From Candidatus Accumulibacter sp. ACC003 (GTDB taxonomy: Bacteria; Pseudomonadota; Gammaproteobacteria; Burkholderiales; Rhodocyclaceae), in NCBI RefSeq assembly GCF_907163085.1, contig NZ_CAJQTX010000008.1, positions 22,855 through 86,854 on the forward strand: 64,000 bases of DNA, written 5' to 3'. Positions 141 through 48,089 of this stretch are shown in pieces. The position numbers were made by a program, and so were the translations under genes. The notes beneath the pieces are model-generated. The model searched no databases. It was not told the DNA's origin and saw only the letters and a list, made by a program, of their open reading frames with translations. The first letter of the stretch is position 1. Every line of letters begins with the position of its first letter.

Positions 141-918
141 CTAGGCGCGCGCGACCAACCTTGTCCGAACGAGCCGGTACCTATCGCTGTCAGAGCGCAA
201 GTCCTCCGGCTTGGTGTTGCGAACTGCCATAGCCGCAAGTGAGCCGGTCCGGTAGAGTTCGGAACACCGTGCCAAGTGATCCGCATATGCCGAACGAATT
301 CTTCCCTCATAGTGTTCTGCCACCTTCTCCAGAGGCTCCCCGCCTGTGACTGCGACAAGGCATGCGGCCAACAGCACGGCCCCGCGTAGGGCATGCCCGG
401 TTCCATCCCCACCCATCGGATCGAAGGACACAGCAGCGTCACCCACGGCCCACACTCCTTGACGTTGCATCGGTGTCGTCAGAGCTGGGGACGCGTCGAA
501 GCGCAGCCAGCAAGACTTGCGAGCACCGAGCCGTTGACCGATCTCTGGTGGCAGTTCCACGGCCCCTGCAGGGACTCGCTGAAGCACGGCGGTCGCGTGA
601 CTCACAGGCTGAAGAAAAAACCAGGCACCTCGATGCATGGACCAGATTGCACTAGTGTTTAATTGCATAGATTAACGATAGTATTCCGCAGCTGCGCGCC
701 CTTGACCTCTCGCTTTCGCCAGGCGAATGGGGCGGCGTTCTGGTTGTAAGCCGCGGTGAAGCTGTGAATGGCGGCAACGAGTTGATCCAGGCTCGAGAAG
801 CTGGCGTTTCTCAGGGTCTTGCGCTGGAAGATGCCGAACCAAAGTAAGCGTCCAGCCCGACCATCTATAAGTTATCCCTGCTCTCGTTCAAGCTGACGAC
901 TTTCGACGAGAGGAAGAC

Positions 919-1239
919 ATGGACAAGAACGCGGAGCGGGAAGCGTACTGGCGCGCGCATGTGGGTGCCTGGCGGGCGAGCGGCGAGAGCCAGAAGGCGT
1001 ATTGCCACCGTCAAGGGCTGAAGGAGCACTCGCTCAGCTACTGGCACCTTCGCCTGGCAAGAGGCGAAAGCGCGCCTGGAGCCGAGACGCCATTGACGCT
1101 GATTCCGGCGGTGAAGATCGGCAATAGCCCGAGCGCACAGCCGAGCCTGTCGCTCGACACGCCCACCGGCTGGCGCCTGGAATTTGCGGCGCTGCCTCCG
1201 GCCACGTGGTTGGCCGCGCTCTGCGCTGAACATTCATGA
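919..1239 (+). CDS. tnpA: IS66 accessory protein TnpA
   Basis: A 106-residue protein matching the small first gene of IS66 elements. It has the typical N-terminal pattern in which WRAHVGAWRASGESQKAYCHRQGL forms a putative helix-turn-helix, followed by SLSYWHLRLAR. The family role is an accessory or DNA-binding function needed for transposition together with TnpB. An AGAGGAAG ribosome binding site precedes the ATG. The 3' end overlaps tnpB by 4 bp (ATGA), so the two are translationally coupled. Confidence 0.85.
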   Translation: MDKNAEREAYWRAHVGAWRASGESQKAYCHRQGLKEHSLSYWHLRLARGESAPGAETPLTLIPAVKIGNSPSAQPSLSLDTPTGWRLEFAALPPATWLAALCAEHS

Positions 1240-1589
1240 TCGCCCCGCTCAGCCGCCCGTTGGCCGGCGTCTGGCTGGCGATCGAACCGGTGGACATGCG
1301 CCTGGGCATTGATGGCCTATCCGCTCGCCTGCAGAACAGCCTTGGGCGCTCCCCCTGCGACGGCAGCGCCTACGCCTTCACCAATCGCAAGCGCAGCCGC
1401 CTCAAACTACTGCTCTGGGACGGCGCCGGCGTCTGGTTATCGCAACGGCGACTGCACCGCGGGAGCTTCACCTGGCCCCAAGCCGGCGACCCCGTATGCG
1501 CCCTGACAGCGGCCCAATGGCGGTGGCTGATCGCCGGCGTGGACTGGCAGCGTCGCGACGCGCCCGCACCGGCGCACTGGCAGGTCTAA
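1236..1589 (+). CDS. tnpB: IS66 Orf2 accessory protein TnpB
   Basis: A 117-residue protein with the hallmark IS66 Orf2 sequence: VWLAIEPVDMRLGIDGLSA, the RSRLKLLLWDGAGVWL core and the LHRGSFTWP stretch. It is full length for the family, whose members are about 110-120 residues. It starts on the ATGA overlap with tnpA. Its biochemical role is unknown, but it is required for efficient transposition in characterised IS66 elements. Confidence 0.9.
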   Translation: MIAPLSRPLAGVWLAIEPVDMRLGIDGLSARLQNSLGRSPCDGSAYAFTNRKRSRLKLLLWDGAGVWLSQRRLHRGSFTWPQAGDPVCALTAAQWRWLIAGVDWQRRDAPAPAHWQV

Positions 1590-1667
1590 GCACCTGTGCT
1601 TGATAAGAAAGCTAGCAAAAGCGGCTACTTGCGCCCCTTCCGGACGATCTGTTTGGTATAATCTGTT

Positions 1668-3236
1668 ATGGATTTCGCCACCGAACTTGCCGCCTTTGAC
1701 CCCTCGCCAGAACTGCTGGCGTGGATGGAAAAGCGGGTCGGTGGCCTGGTCGAAAACGCACGTACCCGGGCCACGGAGATTCACTGGCGCGACGTCAAAA
1801 TCGAGAAGCTCACGCTCGAACTGGCGCATTTGCGCCGCATGAAATTCGGCGTCAAGAGCGAAGCGCTGATCGCCGGCAACAGAGACCTCTTCGATGAAAC
1901 GCTGGCGGCGGACCTGGCCGTCTGCGAAGCGCGCCTGGCCGAAGAACGCCAGGCGGCCGAAATGGGGCCGCATCAACCGCTTCCCGAAAAACCCAAGCGC
2001 GAACGTGCTGGCCGTCAGCCCCTGCCCGCACAGCTGCCGCGCGTCGAGCACCGGCACGAGCCCGAGACGTGCACCTGTGGTCAATGCGGTCAAGCGCTGG
2101 TACTGATCGGCGAGGACGTGACCGAGAAGCTCAATATCGTTCCGGCCGAGTTCTTCGTCGATCGCCACATCTACCCCAAGTACGCCTGCCGCCCCTGCGC
2201 GACCGTGACGGCGGCAGCGGCCGTGCCGTCGGTGATCGATGGCGGCCTGGCCGCGCCGGCCTTGCTGGCCTGGGTCATGGTCAGCAAGTACGCCGATCAC
2301 CTGCCGCTCTATCGTCTGGAGCAGCAGGCGGCTCGTTCGGGGGTATCGCTGGCGCGCTCGACCCTGGCCGACTGGGTCGGGCGCATCGGCTACGCGCTTG
2401 AACCGCTCGGCGATCGCCTCGCCGACTTGCTGCGTCAAGGAACGATGCTGCATGCGGACGAAACGCCGGTACAGCAACTCGACCCGGGCAAGGGAAAAAC
2501 CAAACGTGCGTATCTCTGGGCCTACCGCAGCAATGACCTGAGCACCGATCCGCCGATCGTCGTCTTCGACTACCAGACGGGCCGGGCCGGGGCGCATGCG
2601 GTGAACTTCCTGAACGGCTGGCGAGGGGTCTTGATGGTCGATGATTTCGCCGGTTACAAAGTGCTGTTTCGCGGCGGCACGATCGAACTCGCCTGCATGG
2701 TGCATGCGCGACGAAAGTTCTTCGACCTGCACAAGGCGAATGGCAACCCGATCGCCGCGGAGGCGGTGCGTCGGATCGGCGAGTTGTATGCGATCGAAGC
2801 GCAGGCCAAGGAGAAAACGGCGGCGGAACGGGCCGAGCTACGCCAGGCTTACAGCAAGCCGCGGCTTGATGCTCTGCACCTGTGGCTCTCGCACACCCGC
2901 CGCTCGGTCGCCGACGGCGGCGCCCTTGCCAAGGCCATCGACTACAGCTTGAGGCGCTGGTCGGCCTTCGCCCGCTATGCCGAGAATGGCTTCTACCCGA
3001 TCGACAACAACCCCGTCGAAAATGCCATCCGCCCGATTTGCCTGGGGAAAAAGAATTGGCTGTTCGCCGGTTCCGAGGCCGCCGGCCAACGCGCCGCAGT
3101 GATTCAGTCCTTGCTCGCCACCGCCCGACTGAATGGTATCGAGCCTATGGCCTGGCTCACCGACACGCTCGAGAAACTCCCCACCTGGCCCAATAGCCGC
3201 ATCGACGAGTTGTTACCCATCAAACAACCCGCCTGA
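1668..3236 (+). CDS. tnpC: IS66 DDE transposase TnpC
   Basis: A 522-residue IS66 transposase. In order it shows an N-terminal coiled region with the KIEKLTLELAHLRRMKFG leucine repeat, a zinc-finger block (CTCGQCGQAL, CRPC) and the catalytic core. Catalytic candidates are the Asp in MLHADETPVQQL, the Asp in VLMVDDFAGYK and the Glu in DNNPVENAIRP. A TATAAT hexamer lies at 1657-1662, only 5 bp before the ATG, so a transcript from it would be almost leaderless; no good -35 box pairs with it. The gene ends 36 bp inside the right terminus and looks functional. Confidence 0.93.
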   Translation: MDFATELAAFDPSPELLAWMEKRVGGLVENARTRATEIHWRDVKIEKLTLELAHLRRMKFGVKSEALIAGNRDLFDETLAADLAVCEARLAEERQAAEMGPHQPLPEKPKRERAGRQPLPAQLPRVEHRHEPETCTCGQCGQALVLIGEDVTEKLNIVPAEFFVDRHIYPKYACRPCATVTAAAAVPSVIDGGLAAPALLAWVMVSKYADHLPLYRLEQQAARSGVSLARSTLADWVGRIGYALEPLGDRLADLLRQGTMLHADETPVQQLDPGKGKTKRAYLWAYRSNDLSTDPPIVVFDYQTGRAGAHAVNFLNGWRGVLMVDDFAGYKVLFRGGTIELACMVHARRKFFDLHKANGNPIAAEAVRRIGELYAIEAQAKEKTAAERAELRQAYSKPRLDALHLWLSHTRRSVADGGALAKAIDYSLRRWSAFARYAENGFYPIDNNPVENAIRPICLGKKNWLFAGSEAAGQRAAVIQSLLATARLNGIEPMAWLTDTLEKLPTWPNSRIDELLPIKQPA

Positions 3237-4698
3237 TCTGCACAAGGGAAGGTGGGTGCGCTGCACGCTTACGAACCAAATCTCCACTTGGTTTAGCCAA
3301 CTGGCGCTGGTGGGCGTGAAGTGAAAGGTGACGTTGGGGTGAGCGGCGAGCCACTCGTCGTTTTTCTTGTGCGTGTTGAGGTTGTCCAAGATGACGTGGA
3401 TCTCACGGTCGACGGGTTCATCAGCGATGGTCTCCTCCATGAAGGCCTGGAAATCAGCGCGCTTCTTGGTTAGGGTAGTCTTGCCTCGAATGACGCCGGT
3501 GGCCACTTCGAGGGCGGCGAACAGGTTGACCGTGCCATGGCGTTTGTAGGTGCTTTTCAGTCCCTGAACCACCTTTCCGCTACTGGTTTGGACATAGCCG
3601 CGCCGACGCTCCAGAGCCTGGATCGAGGGTTTCTCGTCGACGCTCAGGACCAGCGCGTTTTCAGGTGGGTTAAGGTACAACCCGATGACATCCGCTGCTT
3701 TGGCGGCGAACTCTGGGTCCGTGCTCACGCACCAGGAGCGATGCCGCTGCAGCTGGATGCCCTCCCGACGCAACACGCGCCACACGGCATCGTCCGATAC
3801 TTCCAGCGCCTTCGCCAGCGAACCACCATCCCAACTTGCCATACCTTCCGGCGGTGTCCGTTCGAGTTGCGCCAGAATGCGGTCACGCAGATCCTGCCCG
3901 TACTTCGCCGGCTTGCCCGGCCGCGCAGCATCACGCAAGCCCGACAAACCATGCTCGGCAAAGCGCCGACGCCACAGCCCCACCGTGTTCGCACGTACGC
4001 CAACTGCGCGGGCAACCTCGTCGTTTCGCAGACCCTCCAAACAACCCAGCACGATTCTCGCTCGCTCGGCCAAGCGAACCTCGCCACTGCGACTCCGTGA
4101 CATACGCTCCAATTCCTCCTTCACCTCCGCTGTGCAAGACAGCGCCACCGCCACACGTCCCACCACATCTACTCCACCACGAAGCAATGGAGAAGCATGA
4201 TAGTTACTACCGGTTAACAATGCAATTAGACACTAGCATTGTGTTCACTCAACTCGAAATATGCTTGGTCAGCCCAGCGATCATCTGCGCGGATGCGCTG
4301 TACCTCTGGTTGTTGGCGCAGTACTCGGGCTCCACGCCCCGTGGCGTCGATCGTTTTGCTGGAGTCGAGTGGTTGGTCGCCAACGCCCAACTCTTTCAGG
4401 CGCGCCACCATACGTGTTGCCAATACGGCAAGGTCGACGACAGGCGTGCGAACCTGTTGAATGCCATGTCGATGGCCATCATGGTGCACTTCGCGTTCTG
4501 CGACCCTCCACGCATCAACGAGAATGTTCGGCCCCCACAGGTCAGCAAGGAGGCGCTCAGCCGCCGGCGAGAGTCCGATAATGGGTGCGCTGTGTGTGGG
4601 CTGGCGTACCTGAGCCACCCGCCACCCAGCTGTTGCCAAGAGTAACGCGACAGTGCATCCGGCCACACCGCCACCGTGGACCGTAGTAGCTTTCATTA

Positions 4699-10281: not shown

Positions 10282-11909
10282 GCCCCTCATAAAGGGAGAG
10301 ATCGGGTGCGGCGATCTCGATTTCCAGGAGGTCCTGGCGGCGGGTGAGATGGAGCGCACCGGCCGCCGGGATTTCGCGGGCCCGCATCTCCAGGATGTTG
10401 GCGACGTACTCACTACTGTAGGCGGCAAAGGCAATGCCATCCTGGATCGCCCGGTCGACGGCGTCGGCGCCATAGATCTCGCTCAAGGCGACGATCTTGC
10501 GCAGGTGATGGCGCGAGTTCACGCGGCGTTGCTCGATGCCCTCCAGATAGGCCGATGCGTGCCGCGAGAGACTCAGGAACTGCACCAGCAAGCGCTGCTC
10601 ACGGGCATTTCGCCGCTGCGCGAGCAGCTCCTTCGGATGCTCGGGGTCCTCGATATCCTGGCGGCGATCGTAGCTGCGGACATGGCGGGCGACGAGCTTG
10701 TTCTGGTGGTAAATGCACACCCGGTCCGGGTACGCCTTCAGCGTCACCCGCTGACTCGCCAACTCGGCGGGGACCGAATAGTGGTTGCCTTCGAGCGCCA
10801 CACGGAACTGCTTGGAAGCGCGCTGACTCTGGATGCGAGCGATGTCGTAGGGCATCGGATTGAGTGACTGCAGCTTCGCTTGCTCGTCCTTGAACAGGTC
10901 GACGGGTCGCTGGTGCGTTTCCCCATGGATGCGAACATTGGCGATGCTCGCCAGCCACAGCTCGGCGGCCGGGTTCACCGCGCTGAAGTCGAGAAGCTCC
11001 AGACCGTTCAGGAAATTCTTTTTGACATAACCCACACCGTTTTCGACGCGTCCTTTTTCGTGGCCTTGCCCGACGTTACACGCCGAGATCTCGAACCCCC
11101 AATGACGAGCGAAATCGACGTAGCGCGGATTGAACAGCGGCGCCTCACCGACGACGCGGGCGAGCACCGCCGATTTCAAATTCAGATTTCCTGATCTCGG
11201 AGGAAACCGGGTTGGCACTTCAGACAAGAGTGAAGGTCATTCTTGCCCCGGTTTCCGGATGCGGAAAATCTTGCAGGGTGAGTTCCTCGAGGAGCGCGGC
11301 GATAGCGCGATCATGAGCTGGGCTGGCCATCCGGTGAATTTTGATGGTCAGGGTGTTGGCTAGCGCGTTCGGTTCGATGTCAGCGGAAGAAACGAACAAT
11401 TCGCGAATGAGCGCACGTGCGTCGTCCTCCTTCTTCAAGTGGCGGCGCAATAGCGCCACCATGGCGGTCTCGGCCCGGTAGGCGACCATTTTCACGGTAT
11501 CGCAGAGCATCTTGTTCAGCGGCGGCAGTTGGGTCGGTCGCTCGGTCTCGGGCAGACTGTCGATCGTCACCTTTCGGGGGCTTGCCTTGCGCGCCGCGCA
11601 AAGTCGCTTGAGCTCCTCCTGAACGGCCTGCAGTGCTTCGACAGACTCGGCGTTTTTCTGGATTTCGCCGCCGTCGTTCAAGGCCGTCCTGGCGATTGCG
11701 GCCTGCAGTTTTCTTTCGCTCTGGCGGGTTTGCCTGACGGCCTTGTCGAGTTCCCGCCAGCGGGGGTTGACGACCTGGTGAGTGCCGGGAAGAGAGTGTA
11801 AGTATTCGGTGAACCCGTAGCCCCCGCTTTTTTGGTCGGCGTGGTTCAGTCAGCGATTGGCGGGTAGACCGGAAATCTGGACTGGACACAGCAGCGGAAA
11901 TCCGGCACC

Positions 11910-13610
11910 ATGCGGCGCATGGACACGGGTGCGGACATCATTGGCGGAGGATCGGCGGCAAGTCACCGCCAAGTGGCGCCGTTCGCCGAGGTGTTGGTGA
12001 CGCTAACCAAGGAGCAGGAAATCAAGCTCCGTTGGGAGGCCAGCTTCTGGCGGAGCCAACATCGACAAGCGCTGGTTCGGTTGGCGCAATCGGAGGCAGC
12101 TCATCGGGTGGAAATGGCGCAAGCGGCGGCGCGCGAGGCGGCCTTGCGCAGCGAACTGGAGCAGGCCAAGGGCAAGATCCGCGATCTGCAAAAACGCCTG
12201 TTTGGTCGCAAGTCAGAACGCTCTTCGGGAGCCGAGAAGAACCCGGCGGCGGACCAAAAATCGTCGCGAGCTCGAGGTCAGCAACCGGGAGCAGCGGGTC
12301 ACGGGCGGAACCCGGAAAGTCACTTGCCGACGCAGATCGAGGTCATCGACATCGACTGCCCGCATTGCCCGGACTGTGGTCTGGGCTACGTCGACTTTCC
12401 CGGCACGGAAGACAGTGAAGTCCTCGAGATCGAGGTCAAGGCCTACCGCCGGAAGATCTGCCGGCGGCGCTACCGGCGGACCTGTCAGTGTTCGGGCGCG
12501 CGGGGTATTCTGACCGCGCCACCGCCGGCACGATTGATCCCGCGTGGAAAGTACGGCGTGTCGATCTGGGTGCACCTGCTGCTGTCGAAGTTCTTGTACG
12601 GCCAGCCGACGCATCGGCTTCTGCGAGACTTGTCCGACCACGGACTGACGCTCTCGGCAGGAACGGTGGCCGGCGGACTGCGTGCCTTGGCACCGCTGTT
12701 CGAGCCGCTTGAAGAAGCACTGCTTGGCCAACTACGCAGCGAGAAACAGTGGCACGCAGACGAGACCCGCTGGCGGGTCTTTGCCGAGACCGAAGGGAAG
12801 GTCGGACATCGCTGGTATTTCTGGGTGTTCCACGGCCCATCGGTCATCCACTTCGTGCTCGACCCGAGCCGCTCGGCGGCGGTGCCGATCCGGGAGCTCT
12901 CCGGTAGCGCCGGAGGAGTCATCATCTGTGATCGCTATTCGGCCTACAAGAAGCTCGCGCGAGTCCTTGACCACTTCATTCTGGCTTTCTGCTGGGCACA
13001 TCAGCGGCGTGATTTCCTGGAACTGGCCAACGCCCATCCGGAGCTCGCGGACTGGGCACTGGCCTGGGTCGAGCAGATCGCTCAGCTCTACCACTTGAAT
13101 GGACGGCGCCTGGAAGTCCGTAGCGACCCAGTACAGTGGGCCGAACGCGACCGCGCCTTGCGGCAGGCGATCACGCAAATGGCCAGTCAACGGGAAAGCG
13201 AACTGGCGAACCCGGCGCTCAAAATGCCGGCGAGCAAGGTGCTGCGAAGCATGCGCAAACATTGGTCCGGCCTGACCGTCTTTGTCGACCGCCCCGAGGT
13301 GGCGATGGACAATAATGCCGCCGAGCGCGCACAGCGCACGCCGGTGGTCGCACGCAAGAACTTCTATGGGTCGGGCAGTCTCTGGTCCGGCGCACTCGCC
13401 GCGACGATGTTCAGCTTGCTGCTGACGCTGCGCTTGTGGGGAATCAACCCGCGCACCTGGCTGACGGCGTATCTGGAGGCCTGCGCCGCCAACGGCAACC
13501 TGCCGCCGACGGACTTGAGTGCCTTTCTGCCCTGGGCGATGGCGACCGATCGACTGGCTCAGATGCGTGGCATCCCGGTCGATCAGAGCCGTCCCATCGA
13601 TAGCTCGTGA
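11910..13610 (+). CDS. IS66-type DDE transposase (copy A)
   Basis: Up to 566 residues. An N-terminal coiled-coil (ALRSELEQAKGKIRDLQKRLFGR) is followed by a zinc-finger block (CPHCPDCGLGY), then the catalytic core with Asp in WHADETRWRVF, Asp in VIICDRYSAYKK and Glu in MDNNAAERAQRTP. This matches TnpC of IS66, but the standard tnpA and tnpB partners are absent. The start is uncertain: the annotated ATG gives an N-terminal extension of about 30 residues, and an internal GTG/TTG before LTKEQEIKLRWE may be the true start. The stop overlaps the next gene in GTGA. Confidence 0.88.
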   Translation: MRRMDTGADIIGGGSAASHRQVAPFAEVLVTLTKEQEIKLRWEASFWRSQHRQALVRLAQSEAAHRVEMAQAAAREAALRSELEQAKGKIRDLQKRLFGRKSERSSGAEKNPAADQKSSRARGQQPGAAGHGRNPESHLPTQIEVIDIDCPHCPDCGLGYVDFPGTEDSEVLEIEVKAYRRKICRRRYRRTCQCSGARGILTAPPPARLIPRGKYGVSIWVHLLLSKFLYGQPTHRLLRDLSDHGLTLSAGTVAGGLRALAPLFEPLEEALLGQLRSEKQWHADETRWRVFAETEGKVGHRWYFWVFHGPSVIHFVLDPSRSAAVPIRELSGSAGGVIICDRYSAYKKLARVLDHFILAFCWAHQRRDFLELANAHPELADWALAWVEQIAQLYHLNGRRLEVRSDPVQWAERDRALRQAITQMASQRESELANPALKMPASKVLRSMRKHWSGLTVFVDRPEVAMDNNAAERAQRTPVVARKNFYGSGSLWSGALAATMFSLLLTLRLWGINPRTWLTAYLEACAANGNLPPTDLSAFLPWAMATDRLAQMRGIPVDQSRPIDSS

Positions 13611-14464
13611 AGCCTTATTGCGGGCGTCACTTTACCGACGACGAACTGCAGGCCCTCTGCCGCCTGATCGAAGCCCATCCTGGCAGCAGCCGCGCGCAAC
13701 TGTCGCGCCAGGTGTGTGAGCTCTTCGACTGGCGTAAGCCCAATGGCGAGCTGAAGGATATGACCTGCCGGGTGGCCATGCTGCGTATGCAGGCCGACGG
13801 CCTGCTCACCCTGCCGGCGGCACGACGGGCCGCTCCTCGCCAACCCGAGTATCTGCCTACTCACGCCACCGATCCACAACCGTTGCTCACTCAGCCGGTG
13901 CATGAACTGCCGCCGCTGCGTCTGCATCAGGTCGTCGGTTCGGCGAACTCGCGTCTGTGGAACGAGTACATCGCCCGCTACCACTATCTCGGCCACACGC
14001 CCATGGCGGGCAGTCAGAGCCGCTACTTCGTCTTCGCCGGCGAGACCCTGGTCGCCTTGCTCAGCTTCGGCGCCAGCGCCTGGAAACTCGCCGCGCGCGA
14101 GCAATTCATCGGTTGGCACGATGAGCAGCGACAAAGGAACCTGCAACTGGTGGTGAACAATGCCCGCTTTCTGATCCTGCCCTGGATCCAGTGCAAGGGC
14201 CTGGCCTCCAAGATCCTCTCGCTTATGCAGCGGCAACTGCCCAAGGACTGGCTGGCGCGCTACGGCTACCGCCCCGTACTGCTCGAAACCTTCGTCGAGA
14301 CGCCCCGCCATCGCGGCACCTGCTACCAGGCCGCCAACTGGATCAAGGTCGGTCAAACCGCCGGGCGAGGCAAGAAATGCCCCACCAGCAAGTCCATCCT
14401 CCCGATCAAGGACATCTGGCTCTACCCCCTTCACAGAGCCTTCCGATCAGTCCTCTGCCGCTAA
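13607..14464 (+). CDS. DUF4338 / DruA-like protein carried by IS66-type element (copy A)
   Basis: 285 residues from a GTG start that overlaps the transposase stop (GTGA), so its translation is coupled to the transposase. The N-terminal part is a small helical domain ([31 protein letters not shown]). The C-terminal part has the DUF4338 signature: [65 protein letters not shown] and [19 protein letters not shown]4338 is the family of DruA from the Druantia anti-phage system. No other Druantia gene (DruB-E or the large helicase) is nearby, so here it is more likely an IS accessory factor; its activity is unknown. Confidence 0.85.
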   Translation: MKPYCGRHFTDDELQALCRLIEAHPGSSRAQLSRQVCELFDWRKPNGELKDMTCRVAMLRMQADGLLTLPAARRAAPRQPEYLPTHATDPQPLLTQPVHELPPLRLHQVVGSANSRLWNEYIARYHYLGHTPMAGSQSRYFVFAGETLVALLSFGASAWKLAAREQFIGWHDEQRQRNLQLVVNNARFLILPWIQCKGLASKILSLMQRQLPKDWLARYGYRPVLLETFVETPRHRGTCYQAANWIKVGQTAGRGKKCPTSKSILPIKDIWLYPLHRAFRSVLCR

Positions 14465-16838
14465 CCCGCCTCGGCAATGGCGCTGGCGCGCTACGGGTTG
14501 GCCGAATACTTACAAGAGAGTCGTCTCCGTACTCGATAAGTCCATCAATATCATAGTGTTCCATCATGTACGCGAAGTAGTTTTCCTGGCACCAACGGGC
14601 GAACATCCGCCCAGCGATGGTGGTGTTTCCGAGTTGCCGGGCGGTCGTGATCACGGCTGTTTGATGTCCCGTCTGGGTCAGCCGACGAACTTCGCTCACG
14701 GCCAGGCTGCTATCGCCTGTGCCGAGTCGGGTTTCGCGCATGGCGAGTTTCATCCCGGTGCTGCCGCCTGCCGGCAGATGGACTTCCTGTTCCTGAAACA
14801 CCTCTTCGGACCAGAGGTCCTTGACGTTCTTGCGGTAGGTCAGTGCGCCGATGCGCTGTTTCCAGAGTCTGCCGAGGAGACTCTGGGTGGCCCCTTCCCG
14901 ATCGAAGACCATGACAAACCGGTGCAGGGTCGGGTCGGCGTCCAGTTCGGCCGGCGTCGGCTGTCCCGGGACAATCTCCAGCAGTTGGGGGACGATGTCC
15001 TTGAGCAGGGTCTCGGCGAGTCCGTCATTGAGCGGCTGCGAAACCACAAAGAACGGGCGACCCAGGGCATCGTTAACCCAGTAGTCGGTGGTGCCCCGCA
15101 GGCACAGGCGTTCGCGCGAGACGTAGCGCTTCGACAGCCTGGCCTGCTCGCCGTGATACACCCGAACATGACCATCGACATACAGGTAACCCGCTTCTTC
15201 TGGCTCACTTTCCATCCAGAGCTTCGCGAGATCCCGCATCCAGGCTGCCGGGTCACCCGTCTTGGCCAGCAGATGGACCTTTTCCCGCAGGGTGCGGACT
15301 TCCGGTACCCGGTCCAGGCCGATGACTTTGCCGAGTTCTCCGGGCGAGGTTTGTCGCAGATGTTCCGGCCGCTTGATTCGCCCCAGGGCCATGAAGCCGA
15401 GGACGAGAAGGATGTGCAAGGCGCTGTAGAATCCCCGGGGCAGCTTGAGATGGCGATCCAGGCCGGTCAGTAGCCCGTTCGCGCACAAGGCCGGCAAGCC
15501 GGCCAACAGCCCCCCCATCGCCACATCGTGGCTCGCTTCGAAGCGCGTCGTCGCACCGGTCGCCAATCCCAGCGCCGTTTGGATCCGCTCGTCGGCGCGC
15601 GTGCAGGCGGTGCCCATCCCCGCGGCGGCTTCCGCATCCGCCCGGCTGCGCTCACTCTTGGTGCTCGCCGCTTCCAACTCCCCTGCCTCTTGCGGCAAGG
15701 CGGCCAACTGCGGCACGCCCTGGCGCCGGATCGCCTTGCGCAGCGTCGACTCCTGGACGCCCACCTGCCGTGCCACTTCGGCAGGACGCTTTCCCTCGCT
15801 CAACAGCCGCGCGCATTCGGCACTCTTGTCCGGCGTCATGATCCGCGGCCGGCTCGCCGCCGCCGGTCGAAAGAAAGACGATGGCCCGGCTTTGCGGCTT
15901 TGTCCCACCCAGTTCATCAGCGTGCGGTGCGGGATGCACAGCGGTGGCCTTTCCAGTTCGACCGCCTTGACGTGCCCGTTCTCCATCAGGCTGGTCAGAG
16001 CGAACCTGCGGCCAGCGTCGTCTCCTACGGGGTGCGAGAAGTAATTGTCTCCCCCAACAAAGTAGATCGCTTGGCCATCCTTCTCCAGAATCGCCAACCC
16101 TTCTCCCACTTTCTGCGCACCATCCGGAAACCCTGGAAGCCACGATTGCCTCAACGTCTGCTCCTCCTTGCACTCCTAGCGAAGCTTGGTTTATGCCATA
16201 AGAAAATCATGGCCGTCAAAATAAAGTGCCACGTGCAATTCCGGAATTCTACCTACATTCCCGGCCGGGATCAGGAAATCTGAAATTGTCGATCATCAAG
16301 CGGGCTGGGCAACCCCGGAACGCCGTGAAGGCGTGCTCATGGGCGGCGAGGAAATGCTCCATGGTTTGCGAGACGGTGAACTCGACGTACATCAGGCGGC
16401 TGTAGCACAGCACCATGACGAAGAAGGACAGTCGCCGACGCGTCGAGCCGACCGCGATGCTGCCGTATTCGCCCCAGTCAACCTGGGCGCATTCCCCGGG
16501 GGCAAAGGAGAGCTTGAGAAAGGCGGGCCGACGCACCGGCCGGACCTTGCGTACATACGTCTTGACGATCGTGTAGCCGCCCGTAAAACCTTCCTCGCGC
16601 AGGCGCTGGAAGATCTGCTGCGCGCTGTACGGGTGGCTTTCCAGCAGGCGAACGATGCGCGCCTTGAAGGGGTCGAGGCGACTGCTGCGTGGTGGCGACT
16701 GGCGGGCATGAAACTGCGCGACGCCGACCCACTTCGCCACCGTGTCCGCATCCAGAGCGAGGGCGCGGGCGGTCTGCGCGATGGTCAGCTGCTGCCGATC
16801 GTGGTGATCCTTGATCTTGCAGTAGGTTTCGTAGTCGA

Positions 16839-45033: not shown

Positions 45034-45353
45034 CGAATGGTCATCCTCGCCTTTTTGGTTTTTCAGATTTCTCGCGGTCGACAGGACATCGCACGCCCGT
45101 TTCGCGAAGCGCGTGACGCCGCTTGAAGAAACCGCTCTCGTTGCGCACTACGATTTGCCGATTGCGGATTCTATACGAGCGGGCTCGCTCGCTGTACACC
45201 TGTTAACTCAACAAGTTGGACGAAGGCGCTACGCTACGCGGGTAAGTATTCGGTGAACCCGTAGCCCCCGCTTTTTTGGTCGGCGTGGTTCAGTCAGCGA
45301 TTGGCGGGTAGACCGGAAATCTGGACTGGACACAGCAGCGGAAATCCGGCACC

Positions 45354-47054
45354 ATGCGGCGCATGGACACGGGTGCGGACATCATTGGCGGAGGATCGGC
45401 GGCAAGTCACCGCCAAGTGGCGCCGTTCGCCGAGGTGTTGGTGACGTTGACCAAGGAGCAGGAAATCAAGCTCCGCTGGGAGGCCAGCTTCTGGCGGAGC
45501 CAACATCGACAAGCGCTGGTTCGGTTGGCGCAATCGGAGGCCGCTCATCGGGTGGAAATGGCGCAAGCGGCGGCGCGCGAGGCGGCCTTGCGCAGCGAAC
45601 TGGAGCAGGCCAAGGGCAAGATCCGCGATCTGCAAAAACGCCTGTTTGGTCGCAAGTCAGAACGCTCTTCGGGAGCCGAGAAGAACCCGGCGGCGGACCA
45701 AAAATCGTCGCGAGCTCGAGGTCAGCAACCGGGAGCAGCGGGTCACGGGCGGAACCCGGAAAGTCACTTGCCGACGCAGATCGAGGTCATCGACATCGAC
45801 TGCCCGCATTGCCCGGACTGTGGTCTGGGCTACGTCGACTTTCCCGGCACGGAAGACAGTGAAGTCCTCGAGATCGAGGTCAAGGCCTACCGCCGGAAGA
45901 TCTGCCGGCGGCGCTACCGGCGGACCTGTCAGTGTTCGGGCGCGCGGGGTATTCTGACCGCGCCACCGCCGGCACGATTGATCCCGCGTGGAAAGTACGG
46001 CGTGTCGATCTGGGTGCACCTGCTGCTGTCGAAGTTCTTGTACGGCCAGCCGACGCATCGGCTTCTGCGAGACTTGTCCGACCACGGACTGACGCTCTCG
46101 GCAGGAACGGTGGCCGGCGGACTGCGTGCCTTGGCACCGCTGTTCGAGCCGCTTGAAGAAGCACTGCTTGGCCAACTACGCAGCGAGAAACAGTGGCACG
46201 CAGACGAGACCCGCTGGCGGGTCTTTGCCGAGACCGAAGGGAAGGTCGGACATCGCTGGTATTTCTGGGTGTTCCACGGCCCATCGGTCATCCACTTCGT
46301 GCTCGACCCGAGCCGCTCGGCGGCGGTGCCGATCCGGGAGCTCTCCGGTAGCGCCGGAGGAGTCATCATCTGTGATCGCTATTCGGCCTACAAGAAGCTC
46401 GCGCGAGTTCTTGACCACTTCATTCTGGCTTTCTGCTGGGCACATCAGCGGCGTGATTTCCTGGAACTGGCCAACGCCCATCCGGAGCTCGCGGACTGGG
46501 CACTGGCCTGGGTCGAGCAGATCGCTCAGCTCTACCACTTGAATGGACGGCGCCTGGAAGTCCGTAGCGACCCAGTACAGTGGGCCGAACGCGACCGCGC
46601 CTTGCGGCAGGCGATCACGCAAATGGCCAGTCAACGGGAAAGCGAACTGGCGAACCCGGCGCTCAAAATGCCGGCGAGCAAGGTGCTGCGAAGCATGCGC
46701 AAACATTGGTCCGGCCTGACCGTCTTTGTCGACCGCCCCGAGGTGGCGATGGACAATAATGCCGCCGAGCGCGCACAGCGCACGCCGGTGGTCGCACGCA
46801 AGAACTTCTATGGGTCGGGCAGTCTCTGGTCCGGCGCACTCGCCGCGACGATGTTCAGCTTGCTGCTGACGCTGCGCTTGTGGGGAATCAACCCGCGCAC
46901 CTGGCTGACGGCGTATCTGGAGGCCTGCGCCGCCAACGGCAACCTGCCGCCGACGGACTTGAGTGCCTTTCTGCCCTGGGCGATGGCGACCGATCGACTG
47001 GCTCAGATGCGTGGCATCCCGGTCGATCAGAGCCGTCCCATCGATAGCTCGTGA
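45354..47054 (+). CDS. IS66-type DDE transposase (copy B)
   Basis: 566 residues, identical in translation to the copy A transposase, with differences seen only at silent positions (for example GTTGACC for GCTAACC near the start). The zinc-finger block and the DDE residues (WHADETRW, VIICDRYSAY, MDNNAAERA) are intact. The stop overlaps the DruA-like gene as in copy A. Confidence 0.9.
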   Translation: MRRMDTGADIIGGGSAASHRQVAPFAEVLVTLTKEQEIKLRWEASFWRSQHRQALVRLAQSEAAHRVEMAQAAAREAALRSELEQAKGKIRDLQKRLFGRKSERSSGAEKNPAADQKSSRARGQQPGAAGHGRNPESHLPTQIEVIDIDCPHCPDCGLGYVDFPGTEDSEVLEIEVKAYRRKICRRRYRRTCQCSGARGILTAPPPARLIPRGKYGVSIWVHLLLSKFLYGQPTHRLLRDLSDHGLTLSAGTVAGGLRALAPLFEPLEEALLGQLRSEKQWHADETRWRVFAETEGKVGHRWYFWVFHGPSVIHFVLDPSRSAAVPIRELSGSAGGVIICDRYSAYKKLARVLDHFILAFCWAHQRRDFLELANAHPELADWALAWVEQIAQLYHLNGRRLEVRSDPVQWAERDRALRQAITQMASQRESELANPALKMPASKVLRSMRKHWSGLTVFVDRPEVAMDNNAAERAQRTPVVARKNFYGSGSLWSGALAATMFSLLLTLRLWGINPRTWLTAYLEACAANGNLPPTDLSAFLPWAMATDRLAQMRGIPVDQSRPIDSS

Positions 47055-47908
47055 AGCCTTATTGCGGGCGTCACTTTACCGACGACGAACTGCAGGCCCT
47101 CTGCCGCCTGATCGAAGCCCATCCTGGCAGCAGCCGCGCGCAACTGTCGCGCCAGGTGTGTGAGCTCTTCGACTGGCGTAAGCCCAATGGCGAGCTGAAG
47201 GATATGACCTGCCGGGTGGCCATGCTGCGTATGCAGGCCGACGGCCTGCTCACCCTGCCGGCGGCACGACGGGCCGCTCCTCGCCAACCCGAGTATCTGC
47301 CTACTCACGCCACCGATCCACAACCGTTGCTCACCCAGCCGGTGCATGAACTGCCGCCGCTGCGTCTGCATCAGGTCGTCGGTTCGGCGAACTCGCGTCT
47401 GTGGAACGAGTACATCGCCCGCTACCACTATCTCGGCCACACGCCCATGGCGGGCAGTCAGAGCCGCTACTTCGTCTTCGCCGGCGAGACCCTGGTCGCC
47501 TTGCTCAGCTTCGGCGCCAGCGCCTGGAAACTCGCCGCGCGCGAGCAATTCATCGGTTGGCACGATGAGCAGCGACAAAGGAACCTGCAACTGGTGGTGA
47601 ACAATGCCCGCTTTCTGATCCTGCCCTGGATCCAGTGCAAGGGCCTGGCCTCCAAGATCCTCTCGCTTATGCAGCGGCAATTGCCCAAGGACTGGCTGGC
47701 GCGCTACGGCTACCGCCCCGTACTACTCGAAACCTTCGTCGAGACGCCCCGCCATCGCGGCACCTGCTACCAGGCCGCCAACTGGATCAAGGTCGGCCAA
47801 ACCGCCGGCCGAGGCAAGAAGTGCCCCACCCGCAAGTCGATCCTCCCGATCAAGGATATCTGGCTCTATCCCCTTCACCGATCCTTCCGATCAGTCCTCT
47901 GCCGCTAA
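47051..47908 (+). CDS. DUF4338 / DruA-like protein (copy B)
   Basis: 285 residues with GTG start in the GTGA overlap. It differs from copy A only near the C-terminus: CPTRKSIL instead of CPTSKSIL and LHRSFRS instead of LHRAFRS. The conserved [19 protein letters not shown] and [16 protein letters not shown] motifs are unchanged. Purifying conservation of this gene between copies argues that it matters for the element, although the copies may simply be too young to have diverged. Confidence 0.87.
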
Positions 47909-48089
47909 CCCGCCTCGGCAATGGCGCTGGCGCGCTACGGGTTGGCCGAATACTTACCTACGCGGAGGAAAGCGCGGTTGCCGCAAGATGGCGGGCTTGT
48001 CCGCTGTCGCCGCGACGATTCTCGACACAAACGGCGAGCGGCAGCAAAGTCATCGGAAGCTCAAGGGCTGGCAGCCGAAGACGAGCGCG

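Follow-up and report, generated by a model that had tools for sequence, protein, structure and literature searches.

The window analysed here, a stretch of 64,000 nucleotides from Candidatus Accumulibacter sp. ACC003, carries two copies (A and B) of an IS66-type insertion sequence (IS) in which the transposase gene tnpC is followed by an overlapping gene of the DruA/DUF4338 family. The element is real and recently active, and both of its genes are intact and under purifying selection. By its predicted fold and its residues, the DruA-like protein is a Mom-like GNAT, and we propose, with a probability of about 50%, that it is a DNA-modifying enzyme that acts within the complex of transposase and DNA and thereby helps or times transposition. 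We infer the activity of the protein, DNA as its substrate, its action in the transposition complex and its help to transposition from the comparisons below. The features concerned are as follows.

11790..11797, no strand: left target duplication of copy A (AAGAGAGT), from flank comparison and the empty site
11798..11821, + strand: 24-bp left inverted repeat of copy A, mismatched with the right repeat at 2 positions, from end comparison
11910..13610, + strand: IS66 transposase (TnpC) of copy A, 566 amino acids (PF03050, 201 bits; NF033517, 302 bits)
13607..14464, + strand: DruA/DUF4338 (predicted Mom-like GNAT) gene of copy A, 285 amino acids, GTG start (PF14236, 140.7 bits; fold and profile matches to Mom)
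13607..13816, + strand: N-terminal three-helix region, residues 1-70, possible winged-helix/helix-turn-helix
13904..14461, + strand: GNAT/Mom-like core, residues 100-285
14207..14209, + strand: codon of Ser201, aligned with Mom S124 (Ala in 8bv8), from profile alignment and residue counts
14490..14513, - strand: right inverted repeat of copy A, from end comparison
14514..14521, no strand: right target duplication of copy A (AAGAGAGT), from flank comparison
45242..47957, + strand: copy B of the element, flanks CTACGCGG, both open reading frames (ORFs) open (L066)
45354..47054, + strand: IS66 transposase of copy B, coordinates shifted from those of copy A
47051..47908, + strand: DruA/DUF4338 gene of copy B, coordinates shifted from those of copy A
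844..3272, + strand: comparison IS66 element without DruA (tnpA-position ORF 919-1239, tnpB 1236-1589, tnpC 1668-3236)

Copies A (11798-14513) and B (45242-47957) are 2716 bp each and differ from one another at 17 positions. Both ends of both copies start with GTAAGTATTCGG, the 24-bp inverted repeats have 2 mismatches between left and right, and the 8-bp flanks (AAGAGAGT/AAGAGAGT for copy A, CTACGCGG/CTACGCGG for copy B) form perfect pairs of different sequence. Copy A interrupts the transposase gene of another insertion sequence, of the Transposase_29 type (PF21804; window 11220-16154). When its flanks were joined over one duplication, 600 of 600 bp aligned without gaps to uninterrupted copies of the host gene at L055, L054, L048 and L038 with 99.0-99.2% identity (L054 and L038 overlap and represent a single genome place), and the boundaries of copy A are therefore exact. 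The ORF at 11910-13610 scored 302 bits against the IS66 transposase model NF033517 (cut-off 180) and 201 bits against PF03050 (cut-off 23.1). The ORF at 13607-14464 scored 140.7 bits against PF14236, the DruA/DUF4338 family (gathering cut-off 27), and its GTG start overlaps the TGA stop of the transposase. A sequence-only reading of the window had described the two copies with common ends and different duplications, the overlapping gene pair, and a standard IS66 element with tnpA and tnpB at 844-3272, and all of this was borne out; the standard element, with 8-bp flanks GAACCAAA and a start that is also GTAAG, contains TnpB (PF05717), an IS66 transposase and an ORF in the tnpA position. The transposase score, the 8-bp duplication and the GTAAG-type terminal inverted repeats place the two-copy element in the IS66 family, and tnpC and the DruA-like gene are the only long genes found in its 2716 bp, which thus lack the tnpA and tnpB of three-gene IS66.

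The same reading had counted two recent copies, which proved far too few: 39 matches were found in the genome, and 28 of these are full-length copies with 92-100% identity. Each of these 28, including copy B, has both ORFs open (transposase 566-578 amino acids, DruA-like protein 285), a count that covers the full-length copies and leaves the 11 partial matches unscored. Both ends are GTAAGTATTCGG in 28/28, and identical 8-bp flanks were found in 26. Between subfamilies, DruA shows 33-36 synonymous versus 18-21 amino-acid changes (ratio of amino-acid-changing to synonymous rates, Ka/Ks, 0.14-0.17), and the most distant tnpC pairs show 64-66 versus 40-42 (Ka/Ks about 0.19); both genes are therefore held as proteins. 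Two close DruA pairs (2 versus 3 and 4 versus 6 synonymous versus amino-acid changes; 0.49) have too few changes to weigh.

Some arrangements among the copies stood out. Three other IS66-DruA copies (L003, L064, L073), which also lie in copies of the PF21804 host element but at a different site from copy A, have one duplication in common, GTAGTTTT/AAAACTAC; either this site is a hot spot or the insertions travelled with their host element. At L070 (C1:246277-251727), two copies of different subfamilies are separated by 7 bp, and one of the two lacks a perfect duplication. The subfamilies at L077, L078 and L070 look mosaic, DruA being nearly identical in some copies and tnpC differing more, which suggests recombination among copies.

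A tree of TnpC was built from 94 rows (left after 76 short TnpC fragments and 2 edge cases had been dropped), or 76 after removal of near-copies; like the DruA tree below, it is a quick search supported by the Shimodaira-Hasegawa-like approximate likelihood ratio test (SH-aLRT) only. DruA lies directly after TnpC in 31 of the 32 rows of one clade (support 99) and before TnpC in a separate 6-row clade (support 100); TnpB without DruA is seen in 28 rows. In the 6-row clade the gene order is tnpB-DruA-tnpC, with TnpB at 8 loci when near-copies are counted; the tree labels these loci 'DruA before, no B' because its search for TnpB extended no further than 600 bp from TnpC, and their TnpB is shown separately. 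All five loci looked at in this clade also have an ORF in the tnpA position, and these ORFs are interrelated (E 3e-8 or better) and have no detectable relation to the TnpA of the window. In the clade with DruA after TnpC, the distances of the two proteins are correlated over 35 loci (Mantel r 0.87, 0/5000 permutations). Searches started from TnpC, with no selection for DruA, found DruA in five of six long matches of at least 49% identity outside the own genome, L321 being the exception. These results support the conclusion that the DruA-like gene is an integral, selected part of the IS66-type element that co-diversifies with the transposase.

The proposal that DruA replaces tnpA/tnpB was, however, rejected as a general rule. 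It describes the TnpC clade of the window, which has DruA and no TnpB, but not the tnpB-DruA-tnpC clade with its tnpA-position ORF, nor four loci of the own genome (L299-L302). The 40 PF03050 matches of this genome comprise 2 standard IS66 elements, which are also the only two places with TnpB, 32 of the DruA type and 6 others; four of the last are L299-L302, which are 90-99% alike and have neither TnpB nor DruA, showing that TnpB-less IS66 elements can multiply without DruA. DruA thus also occurs with tnpB, and IS66 elements without TnpB also occur without DruA. An IS66 DDE transposase, GTAAG ends, an 8-bp duplication and the absence of tnpB are shared with what we take to be the ISBst12-like group, whose members have one transposase gene; the window element differs in its second, overlapping and conserved DruA gene.

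The structure model of the DruA-like protein (pLDDT, the predicted local distance difference test, 88.5) has the GNAT fold. A Foldseek search with it revealed 94 matches in the PDB at E ≤0.001, mostly acetyltransferases among the matches listed; the closest solved structure was Mom of phage Mu (PDB ID 8bv8), which outranked the other aligned GNATs. Profile alignment and residue counts revealed the active-site serine of Mom and its conserved H-Y, R and Y in the DruA-like protein. DruA Ser201 aligns with Mom S124, the serine changed to Ala in the inactive Mom of 8bv8, and the Mom-like residue set is nearly invariant. The transposon-type DruA family profile matched Mom strongly and also matched Druantia DruA. 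The likeness to Mom is strong only between family profiles, most single Mom sequences scoring low; a single GNAT control, the acetyltransferase-like ORF in L045, gave a probability of 0.2. The DruA-like sequence stays below the cut-off of the Pfam Mom family (PF25680, 18.2 bits versus 27.1, E 0.002). It differs from Mom further in an additional N-terminal three-helix region and in its linkage or fusion to a transposase, and its Mom-like chemistry is predicted from fold and residues. A PDB sequence search with the DruA profile gave a single match (plant defensin, E 0.66), and no NCBIfam family is named for the protein.

DruA domains were found beside or inside many transposases. PF14236 matched in 20/61 relatives, 16/397 genomes of a phylum sample and 17/369 of a class sample, the own genome being counted each time. 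A DNA scan of genome contigs gave at least 521 relatives; the best 80 were retained, and the matches listed include Acidobacteria, Planctomycetes, Firmicutes-type bacteria, Nitrospirae, Spirochaetes and Bacteroidales. Among 104 non-redundant DruA domains, a set gathered by DruA similarity and hence no estimate of frequency, 93 share their frame with a transposase or have one no more than 450 bp away on the same strand: IS66 (50), IS66 with TnpB (6), Tn5 type (15), ISAs1 (9), DDE_Tnp_1_assoc type (6), IS4-like (3) and four single types. A partner was not found for the other 11, some of which lie at contig ends. The partners that score above an NCBIfam cut-off belong to IS66 (window; L179), IS4 (L046, L160, L186), ISAs1 (L223) and IS701 (L168); those of L042, L174, L206 and L258 are not named at these cut-offs. 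DruA may follow TnpC, lie between TnpB and TnpC, or precede or follow Tn5-type genes, and in one-frame fusions it is C-terminal to TnpC (L187, L188, L200) or N-terminal in transposases of the Tn5 and ISAs1 types. In the DruA tree (domains under 160 amino acids and near-copies dropped, 138 to 104, 102 in the tree), the partner label is clustered, yet at least 15 changes are needed when unlabelled rows are excluded; fewer are required by the branches with strong support, namely IS66 (6), Tn5 (3), TnpB type (3), ISAs1 (1) and DDEassoc (1). Across all partner classes counted, the serine of Mom and the residues neighbouring it are conserved.

Because DruA is fused to transposases, it probably acts where the transposase acts, and because the Mom-like residues are kept with different partners, one chemistry, most simply on DNA, is suggested. 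Co-diversification, partner changes, fusions at either end and the kept residues together favour a transposition-linked DNA-modifying enzyme. Such an enzyme would be made in step with the transposase through the overlapping genes, would act at the transposase-DNA complex, as the fusions in relatives suggest, and would most likely modify a base in the DNA of the transposon ends or the target, and this modification could help or time transposition. The idea of a transposition cofactor in the sequence-only reading survives in this form: the gene is integral and selected, and since DruA recurs beside and inside different transposases, a transposition-related role appears the best guess. Tn5/IS10 transposition is regulated by Dam, adenine modification at the transposon ends controlling transposition; by analogy, the mark that the host makes there would here be made by the element's own enzyme. 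The occurrence of DruA relatives beside or inside several kinds of transposase suggests a DNA-marking helper in some transposons. More tentative, and distinctly less likely in our view, is the wider reading that one and the same Mom-like base-modifying enzyme was taken up by several unrelated DDE transposon lineages, whether encoded in an overlapping gene or built into the transposase as a domain, and that it marks the DNA of the transposon or of the target within the transposition complex; in this reading, the catalytically altered Druantia DruA may descend from it.

The chief rival, which we consider unlikely, is self-protection, in which DNA would be modified widely as by Mom for Mu, the element or its carrier replicon would escape restriction, and the protein would have no part in the transposition reaction. 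Insertion sequences, however, move mostly inside the cell, and where restriction evasion matters most DruA-like matches were rare or absent, with zero among 50,697 phage records at E 0.01 and 2 among 72,556 plasmid records. Self-protection also needs no transposase fusion, whereas fusions occur with IS66, Tn5-type and ISAs1-type transposases. It draws its appeal from the closest solved structure, Mom of a transposing phage, and from the protection of phage DNA by Mom-type modification, as part of PMC7824862 describes. Somewhat less likely again is regulation of transposition through protein acylation, in which the substrate of the GNAT would be the transposase or a host protein that binds DNA or takes part in replication. 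The fold allows this, and a transposase fusion or overlap would place the enzyme beside such a substrate; but Mom outranks the other aligned GNATs, and the conservation of the serine and its neighbours across partner classes fits a shared substrate such as DNA better than unrelated transposases. The N-terminal three-helix region has weak fold matches, chiefly to winged-helix or homeodomain proteins, and would suit a non-catalytic cofactor that binds DNA or the transposase and aids synapsis or target choice, a reading we regard as improbable. A passenger, i.e., a defence or other cargo gene with no role in movement, is very improbable: the Pfam family is named after a Druantia defence protein and a DUF4338 GNAT domain is fused to DndF (in a part of PMC10853773), but co-diversification with TnpC and repeated capture by, and one-frame fusion with, transposases at either end would be unexpected, the PADLOC DruA match is weak (18.2 bits over 49 residues) and the element has two genes only.

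The family assignment given in the sequence-only reading holds at the Pfam level. Druantia DruA (type I; L249) belongs to the same family, PF14236, with a profile match probability of 95.7, but the transposon protein keeps Mom-like residues with which the Druantia proteins do not align: for H126, R187 and S201, the Druantia protein L107 has A, V and G in the profile alignment. Druantia DruA is also about 400-430 amino acids long and sits with DruD and DruE genes (L249), whereas a search limited to the element found no DruE helicase or other Dru genes. Druantia cargo was rejected in view of the weak PADLOC match, the differing residues and the absence of other Dru genes from the element. Unlike the transposon-type profile, Druantia DruA shows no match to Mom; this pattern fits, and does not show, a descent of Druantia DruA from a transposon protein. 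DndF, as portrayed in part of PMC10853773, carries an N-terminal DUF4338/GNAT domain and likewise joins DUF4338 to a protein acting on DNA, but is a defence protein against invaders, whereas the partner in transposons is a transposase. In another setting, full-length DruA genes adjoin NurA-like and HerA-like genes at L250, L251 and L253 (with matches to NurA and HerA models at L251 and L253), possibly as a DruA-NurA-HerA system distinct from Druantia; a TniQ gene of Tn7 type overlaps DruA at L250.

To our knowledge, IS66-type transposition with accessory genes is poorly understood. In the open literature we found no paper pairing DruA with IS66 and no statement linking DruA to Mom or transposons; ISfinder, bioRxiv and subscription papers were outside this search, and earlier notice is possible. 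DUF4338/PF14236 also appears in PMC6174562, as a bare table entry, in PMC7251935 and in an unrelated paper on lizards. The window element is a new variant of IS66, and an enzyme common to several transposon families would be the larger finding. If the Mom-like enzyme is indeed tied to IS66, IS4/Tn5, ISAs1 and IS701, some transposons would bring their own DNA-modifying step, and many genes labelled DruA/DUF4338 would be read anew, since in a transposon setting they look like Mom-type genes of mobile elements and not defence genes. Tools that score DUF4338 alone could mislabel such transposon genes as defence genes.

PF14236 occurs at 83 places in the own genome, which by score and frame length are of the IS66 type (32), the ISAs1 type (25), a 2592-bp element (20), Tn5-type fusions (4) and others (2); this sorting is a reading of the match table in which only representatives were read in detail. 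The 2592-bp element (L042-L044; about 20 matches) has a DruA gene followed by a DDE_Tnp_1_assoc transposase that no NCBIfam model names, and a target duplication was not evident in the two copies compared. In the ISAs1 type (L039-L041, L050; about 25), DruA and DDE_Tnp_1_assoc share one frame and the DDE part lies in an overlapping frame, an arrangement that may call for frameshifting; 9-10-bp duplications flank each of the four copies compared. The Tn5 type is a single frame of 741 or 760 amino acids with DruA, Tnp_DNA_bind and DDE domains, and at L045 the GNAT-type acetyltransferase-like ORF (3232-3753) lies beside such a DruA-Tn5 fusion.
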